A DNA stretch of 64,000 nt from Pelagibacteraceae bacterium AG-404-P08 (GTDB lineage: Bacteria; Pseudomonadota; Alphaproteobacteria; HIMB59): positions 62,001-126,000 of the forward strand of contig QCJF01000003.1 of the NCBI GenBank assembly GCA_003216195.1, in the 5' to 3' direction. The translations under genes were made by a program, and so were the position numbers. Of this stretch, positions 49,815 through 51,546 are shown one piece after another. The notes below the pieces were generated by a model. It was not told where the DNA came from. It saw only the letters and a program-made list of their open reading frames with translations, and did no database searches. Each line of letters begins with the position of its first letter. The stretch's first letter is position 1.

Positions 49815-49913
49815 TTTAATCCAAAATACTTATTCACAAATTATAAACAGAAAAATTTATTTTTTTATCTTTTGTAATTGTAAAAAAAAATAATTTATTT
49901 TAAATTAATAAAT

Positions 49914-50035
49914 GTAGAGGGTAGGAAACTTCCCAAAACAAAGAAAAGGACCAAAGTAGTAGAGGCTACGAAGAGGGAAACCAAATCGCAGTCGAGACAA
50001 CAGAGGTCCTTTTCTACTTATAATTTTTTTTTATA
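49914..50035 (+). ncRNA. Candidate structured RNA of unknown class
   Basis: In the 241-base gap between convergent genes sits an island much richer in G and C than its surroundings. A perfect 11-base-pair helix (49942-49952 with 50005-50015, agaaaaggacc with its complement) encloses 52 bases with small hairpins: GTAG/CTAC, a GG-GAAA-CC tetraloop-like turn, and TCG/CGA. A stretch at 49914-49928 is repeated with three changes at 49959-49973. A T-run follows at 50024-50031, so the plus strand is preferred, but the minus strand cannot be excluded. No tRNA, SRP, 6S, tmRNA or riboswitch signature was recognised. No open frame explains it. Confidence 0.55.
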
Positions 50036-50055: not shown

Positions 50056-51246
50056 TTAATGTTTATCAAGCAATGAAGGGTTATAAACAGCATTGTAAAT
50101 TAATATTTTTTTTTTGAGAATTGGATCTTTTTGAATAAATTTTCTAAACAATTTCCAAAAACTTTTTTGTTTGTGATATTTATCCTCCAATTTAAGATTG
50201 TTTTGAACATATTTAAGCATATCACTAACAAACATTTTAATTTCTAAACTTGATAAATCCATAAGAGTAATTTTTTTTTCATTAAATTCACTTGTCTTAA
50301 ATAAATCGTGACACTCAATGTTAAATATTTCAGAAATAGGTAAAATTTTCTCATTTTTTAGATGATGTTTTGTTGTTAACATAAATCTCTTACTACTTGT
50401 TTGAAAAACTGAAATTGGTACAGCTAAATAAGCTATAGGTTTTCTAAAAACATAAGGTATAGCATCAAATCCTGATTGGGTTGATATACAAAAATAGCAA
50501 TGTGACCCAACATAAACATCAAATAAATCTGGAAGTGTATTATTTGTCACATCAATATAATACTTACTTTTAATATTTAATTTTTTATTTGATCTTTTTC
50601 CTACTCTTATCACATATATTTTTTCATGAATTAAATATTTAATTGCTTCTTCAAAATTACTTATATTCCAATTTCGATATTTATGATAACTAAAATCTTT
50701 ATTTGGAAAATTTTCTCTTAAATAAGCATCATCTCTAATATTTAGACAAACAAATTTAGAATTTTTAGGTATACCTATTTTAGATAAAATTTCTTCACCT
50801 TTATTTTTTTCTTCCTCATTAATGTATAACTGTGGAGGATACATATCATATAATCCCATTGGATCTGTTCCCGGTGATATAATCTTAGCTATAAATTTAT
50901 CTTTATCTGGGAATAAATTATTAAAATAATATAAAGGGTATACCAAAAAGTTGGGCATTATAAAAATTACTCTTCTAATCATATTATCAACTTGGTGATT
51001 GCATATATGTTGAGTTGAATTAGGATCAGAAAGATAAAAGTGAATAAATATATTTATTTTCTTTACTCTTTTTTTTTTTGAGTTGTGTTTTTGCTCTAAT
51101 AAAAAAGACTCAACATCAGCCAAAAAATGACCTAATCTCTGTGAATTAATTGGGTGTAGCTTAATTGAAACTAGAGGGTTAATTAACCTCATTAAAATTA
51201 ATATCGGCGAATAAAGAAAAAAAATAAATATTTTTATAATTATCAT
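50056..51246 (-). CDS. TIGR04372-like glycosyltransferase, surface polysaccharide type
   Basis: 396-residue protein with an N-terminal hydrophobic segment (about 1-24), then a two-lobed fold. KFVCLNIRDDAYLRENFP, KYRNWNISNFEEAIKYL, VIRVGKRSNKK and CISTQSGFDAIPYVFRKPIAYL resemble the TIGR04372 glycosyltransferase family seen in cell-surface glycan clusters. It stands alone here with no sugar-nucleotide genes, so the substrate is unknown. Very AT-rich. It is near the accessory boundary described below. Confidence 0.72.
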   Translation of the reverse strand: MIIIKIFIFFLYSPILILMRLINPLVSIKLHPINSQRLGHFLADVESFLLEQKHNSKKKRVKKINIFIHFYLSDPNSTQHICNHQVDNMIRRVIFIMPNFLVYPLYYFNNLFPDKDKFIAKIISPGTDPMGLYDMYPPQLYINEEEKNKGEEILSKIGIPKNSKFVCLNIRDDAYLRENFPNKDFSYHKYRNWNISNFEEAIKYLIHEKIYVIRVGKRSNKKLNIKSKYYIDVTNNTLPDLFDVYVGSHCYFCISTQSGFDAIPYVFRKPIAYLAVPISVFQTSSKRFMLTTKHHLKNEKILPISEIFNIECHDLFKTSEFNEKKITLMDLSSLEIKMFVSDMLKYVQNNLKLEDKYHKQKSFWKLFRKFIQKDPILKKKILIYNAVYNPSLLDKH

Positions 51247-51546
51247 TTGAGTATTACTTTAATAAAAATAAAATTTTTAAGAATGGTAGTGTAATATATT
51301 TTTAAATTATTTAAAGAATTGGTGCCGCCCCATGCATGTGCCATAGGGCTTAGTGCTGCAAGTGAATTATTTATTGATTATATAGATGTTTCAATTTTTG
51401 AGGAAATATTGAGCTATTAAACTTATCAGTATTTTTATAAATAATTTAATGCTGATAGCTATCTAATTAAACTTCTAAATCCATATTACAAATCATAGGT
51501 AATACTTTATTTTGTAAAGATAATTGAAAAGTATAATAATTAATTA
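51247..51546. other. 300-base gap holding a GC-rich islet
   Basis: Between the divergent glycosyltransferase and TPR-methyltransferase genes. Most of it is plain AT-rich spacer. Bases 51319-51365 form an islet much richer in G and C that begins with tggtgccgcc, the same ten bases as the 3' end (CCA plus acceptor) of tRNA-Thr at 53655-53664, in the same orientation. A 33-codon frame (TTG 51319 to TAA 51420) and, on the other strand, a frame whose TGA overlaps the ATG at 51246 cross the islet; neither resembles a known protein. A decayed gene or recombination site is possible. Confidence 0.5.

Follow-up and report, generated by a model that had tools for sequence, protein, structure and literature searches.

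For the fourth of their 'other potential motifs' in 'Cand. Pelagibacter ubique', Meyer et al. (2009; PMC2704228) argued that it is a noncoding RNA transcribed on its own. Like that motif, the element analyzed here is a candidate structured RNA from a marine alphaproteobacterium of very high AT content, lies in a spacer rich in GC and has synteny upstream and variation downstream. Compared by description only, the two differ: the Meyer motif forms a three-stem junction, shows no covariation and lies in another organism, among other genes. The element also resembles trans-encoded bacterial small RNAs in its size, predicted promoter, terminator-like end, intergenic location and restriction to one lineage. 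In contrast to their simple terminator loop, its terminal helix encloses a structured domain of 52 nt, and neither Hfq nor a target signal was found for it. Like 6S RNA (RF00013) it is a single-copy structured RNA of a similar size order, and by analogy only it may bind a large protein. However, it is shorter, does not match the RF00013 model and contains small symmetric loops only, whereas 6S RNA has a large central bubble. Its length of about 100 nt, long irregular hairpin and tetraloop cap recall the bacterial small SRP RNA (RF00169), but the element fails that model and the true SRP RNA lies elsewhere in the genome (G000:C4:7068-7162, 50.4 bits). In the literature searched, no earlier description was found in HIMB59, AEGEAN-169 or SAR11. 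The RNA family is new but belongs to a familiar type, the intergenic small RNA gene.

Extent and fold of the element

The window, the whole stretch of 64,000 nt that was analyzed, comes from a source genome of 1.24 Mb in 27 contigs that is 82% complete. On comparison of the sequences, the element is best accounted for as a small noncoding RNA of ~105–112 nt, probably with its own transcription, on the + strand at ~49914–50024 (Table 1). That it is an independent RNA acting in trans we hold with good confidence. The unit is larger than originally outlined, as the predicted promoter and a conserved 24-nt box carry it to 49830.

Table 1. Features of the RNA locus and of the adjoining downstream region in the window.
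Feature	Position	Strand	Remarks
Upstream box TTATTCACAAATTATAAACAGAAA	49830–49853 (−84 to −61)	+	Probable regulator-binding site, from conservation; contains DnaA-box-like TTATTCACA
Predicted sigma-70-type promoter: −35 TTGTAA, 17-nt spacer, −10 TAAATT	49877–49906	+	RNA begins ~7 nt after
5′ module: GUAGA, hairpin GGGUAG-GAAA-CUUCCC, A-rich linker	49914–49941	+	Near-invariant in 34 homologs
Long irregular hairpin: 11-bp P1, short helices, symmetric purine-rich internal loops, GAAA tetraloop at 49977–49980	49942–50015	+	Covariation, folds
U-rich tail, terminator-like 3′ end	50016–50032	+	Main T run in the window copy at 50024–50032
Glycosyltransferase gene (NCBIfam TIGR04372, no Pfam match)	50056–51246	−	Convergent with the RNA
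24-codon C-terminal remnant of the gene for a small secreted-looking protein	51346–51417	+	Behind the glycosyltransferase gene; intact in 20 relatives

The original prediction described a perfect 11-bp helix, and it is found exactly there: AGAAAAGGACC at 49942–49952 pairs with GGTCCTTTTCT at 50005–50015. The small internal hairpins are also present where they had been placed. A perfect inverted repeat of at least 11 bp arose in 6 of 2000 dinucleotide shuffles of 49914–50035. The same segment has a folding energy of −34.8 kcal/mol (z = −4.6), equalled by none of 200 shuffles, and seven relatives fold with z between −3.2 and −6.2; the most distant copy, in G014, reaches −48.0 kcal/mol (z = −6.2). 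The described contrast in base composition is borne out: GC content is 45% in 49914–50016, whereas the two flanks have 10% and 13% and the window as a whole 29%. A GAAA turn is present as described, but there are two of them (49925–49928 and 49977–49980) instead of one. The 15-base near-repeat also exists, with 12 of 15 bases identical; it counts for little as a repeat, because 11 of 100 shuffles contain one as good and the two copies in the relatives have only GTAGAGG in common. As a duplicated domain, the near-repeat was rejected, being by itself not above chance in the shuffles.

Compensatory changes, which had been suggested as a check, were found in the relatives: 11 of the 27 pairs are changed on both sides. 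In 26 representative sequences, 97.9% of the cells pair across the 5′ hairpin, P1 and three inner helices, compared with only 39–54% in slid versions of the fold. The covariation score is 0.231; shuffles give 0.127 ± 0.009, and the slid controls do not exceed 0.107. None of 500 shuffles reached the observed value for cells paired, doubly changed pairs or covariation score. On a tree of the thioesterase gene, which neighbors the element, the pairs 49949/50008 and 49950/50007 have each changed at least 6 times, 49969/49988 at least 7 times and 49957/50000 at least 9 times, mostly from pair to pair. A G-U pair at 49965/49992 is retained in 28 of 29 copies. Since conserved G-U pairs would read A-C on the opposite strand, they mark the + strand as the folding strand. 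The fold of the 5′ hairpin is without covariation support because its sequence hardly varies.

Mean pairwise identity is 0.97 in the box, 0.985 in the 5′ module, 0.80 in the hairpin and 0.72 in the remaining upstream region; the comparison value, from third codon positions of the thioesterase gene, is 0.71. In the three most distant pairs the box retains 0.92 and the 5′ module 0.92–0.96 (92–96% over the first 26 nt of the RNA), with 0.62–0.74 in the hairpin, 0.53–0.65 in the other upstream sequence and 0.50–0.54 at the thioesterase third codon positions. By these values, constraint is strongest in the box and the 5′ module. A promoter pattern TTG-N16/17-TAnnnT ending 6–7 nt before GTAGAGGG is available in all 34 homologs, with the remaining −10 bases varying and, in some AT-rich copies, other spacings scoring equally. 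Immediately 3′ of P1, most homologs have a tail of the type [A/G][T/C]TTTT.

Known RNA classes and distribution

At gathering scores, comparison of the window with 4227 Rfam families matched tRNA alone; with relaxed thresholds, the element and two relatives gave only weak matches, far below the gathering scores. The Rfam search proposed with the original prediction thus found no family that fits. The failure to recognize an SRP RNA, 6S RNA, tmRNA or riboswitch in the letters was justified as well: beside the SRP and 6S comparisons above, ARAGORN reports tRNA-Thr alone in the window and Rfam gives no match to tmRNA, the two-piece alphaproteobacterial form included, or to a riboswitch. The suggestion of a stable noncoding RNA is backed by the covariation, the conserved promoter, the terminator-like end and the lack of an Rfam match. 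In 14 genomes of the genus, the 6S model found no match at E values up to 1, a missing match not being proof of absence. Hfq (PF17209) was found in none of 14 genus genomes (G000, G001 and G005 among them), 10 of them more than 90% complete; all five controls of this search, Caulobacter included, were positive.

By nucleotide search, 34 of the 52 genus genomes carry the element, each in a single copy. When 162 genomes of the order were searched with a covariance model made from 30 copies, only these 34 were recovered, and no match was found in the 110 genomes of other genera. A second covariance model found no member outside the genus among 385 genomes drawn from the class. A relaxed covariance search of the genus genomes that do not carry the element gave no match, and neither did phages, plasmids and viral contigs. 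The box follows the RNA closely: its pattern TTATNCACANNTTATAAACAGAAA occurs once per genome in exactly the 34 RNA-carrying genomes and is absent from the remaining 128 genomes of the order, with no occurrence of a control pattern.

On the thioesterase-gene tree the carriers make up one part of the genus, and G002, G007 and G008, which do not carry the element, fall outside it. G001, the only complete genome of the genus, is without the element though placed among the carriers, which makes at least one loss or replacement in the genus likely. The element is missing from at least four genomes in which the locus is readable (G001, G002, G007 and G008); in G005, G019, G048 and G049 a contig ends near its expected place. 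Being limited to a single genus and lacking at these readable loci, the element is not essential for the group.

Genomic setting

The upstream gene encodes a peroxiredoxin in 31 genomes, a FAD oxidoreductase in G014 and, judged by eye, a class II aldolase-like protein in G006 and G024. For all three different genes, it ends 94–108 nt before the start of the RNA. Downstream, gene content is variable. In 20 of the 33 loci examined, the RNA is followed by a co-oriented gene for a protein of 114–160 aa that matches nothing in Pfam or NCBIfam, and a glycosyltransferase gene was found beside the RNA in this window only. There, the glycosyltransferase gene seems to have replaced the rest of the small-protein gene. 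The original prediction had offered, as its second option, a regulatory element at the 3′ end of the peroxiredoxin or glycosyltransferase mRNA. This did not hold up: the upstream gene differs among genomes, the glycosyltransferase is a neighbor only here and the RNA has its own predicted promoter. Because it persists whatever the neighbors, the RNA is neither a peroxiredoxin 3′ UTR nor tied to the gene that follows.

The small downstream proteins, at locus L080 and other loci, are signal-peptide-like and look secreted. In the loci L064–L092, gene turnover is concentrated in the stretch that separates the RNA from a group of small conserved genes (clusters 7, 8 and 9).

Mode of action and competing accounts

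A cis-acting leader or riboswitch is expected to precede a constant co-oriented gene, and the recurrent gene is found here in 20 of 33 loci. An attenuator of the small secreted-looking protein, in which the RNA senses something and the P1 terminator gates the downstream gene, would explain this recurrence and the remnant in the window. However, 12 of the 33 loci show no trace of the small-protein gene, and in the window only the remnant survives, behind an inserted gene; conservation of the box, the promoter and the RNA is nonetheless just as strong in all of these. Several of the loci without the small-protein gene have a convergent gene about 20 nt past the RNA. All folded copies close the same P1, with no obvious alternative pairing, and we regard a leader as very unlikely. 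Convergent neighbors, in the window and several relatives, would fit a bidirectional terminator whose RNA product has no function, and the A-rich and U-rich arms of P1 put a U-rich tract after it on either strand. A terminator between convergent genes has no need of conserved internal loops, a near-invariant 26-nt 5′ module outside the helix, a promoter or a box, and 20 loci have a co-oriented gene downstream; such an explanation is extremely improbable. Equally improbable is a DNA element, either a replication origin or a recombination or attachment site, that folds as a single strand and borders a block of variable gene content. The DnaA-like TTATTCACA and TTATAAACA in the box and the highly variable gene content past the element speak for it; the conserved G-U pairs and the promoter anatomy suggest an RNA instead, and 4 of the 34 copies depart from the DnaA consensus in the box.

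By sequence comparison, the element has the features expected of a trans-encoded small RNA: a predicted promoter of its own, a terminator-like end, a conserved fold and independence of its neighbors. An Hfq-independent antisense RNA, whose invariant 5′ module would pair with mRNAs, has the usual anatomy of this class on its side, including an invariant 5′ region and a partly single-stranded linker. When the 5′ module was compared with mRNA start regions from sets of 323 and 115 ortholog pairs, in parts of the genomes G006, G018 and G040 and with accessibility ignored, duplex energies were no better than those of shuffled queries. Together with the negative Hfq search and the equal conservation of paired and unpaired bases, this leaves antisense action rather unlikely. 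Recognition of the nearly invariant 5′ module by a protein, suggested by that invariance and by the negative results, is a tentative proposal of ours that has a reasonable chance of holding. We favor it over antisense pairing because no Hfq and no target enrichment were found and the bases of the 5′ module are fixed whether or not they pair; the choice between the two is a matter of judgement.

For the protein-recognized RNA, we propose the following sequence of events. A DNA-binding regulator would act at the 24-nt box, and RNA polymerase would initiate near 49914. The folded transcript would have a GAAA hairpin at its 5′ end, then an A-rich linker and a long hairpin containing purine loops; P1 and its U tract would end transcription. 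The RNA would work in trans, with the 5′ module, bound by a protein, as its most likely functional part rather than a short antisense seed. As a whole, the explanation as a regulated, separately transcribed RNA that acts in trans and has a protein-recognized 5′ module appears probable to us. A further step is speculative and we consider it doubtful: a genus-specific, regulated protein-binding RNA may have taken over a global regulatory job, its 5′ module capturing a regulatory protein and a dedicated factor at the box setting its synthesis. The setting for this idea is a group of ocean bacteria with streamlined genomes, in which no Hfq and no 6S RNA were detected.

The hosts are marine bacteria whose streamlined genomes have short spacers, and little is known of their regulation. 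What distinguishes the RNA is the box exclusive to its carriers and its fixed place amid changing genes, in a lineage without detectable Hfq. A single-copy RNA that keeps its promoter and private box while its flanks are swapped points to RNA-based control in this Hfq-undetected lineage. The family is well defined and can be searched for at once in existing stranded ocean metatranscriptomes.

Within the box, the DnaA-box-like TTATTCACA and TTATAAACA form a direct repeat, 11 bp apart. In 4 of the 34 copies TTATTCACA is replaced by TTACTCACA, which is off the DnaA consensus, and the DnaA-like match is a possible lead only. A replication origin was tried as a candidate and rejected, with no GC-skew switch or DnaA-box cluster at the element in the 758-kb G006 contig or in the window. 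At the start of the RNA, positions 49912–49917 read NTG-TAG in the copies listed for the promoter comparison (N = A, G or T; ATG-TAG in the window), a start codon immediately followed by a stop codon, possibly by chance.
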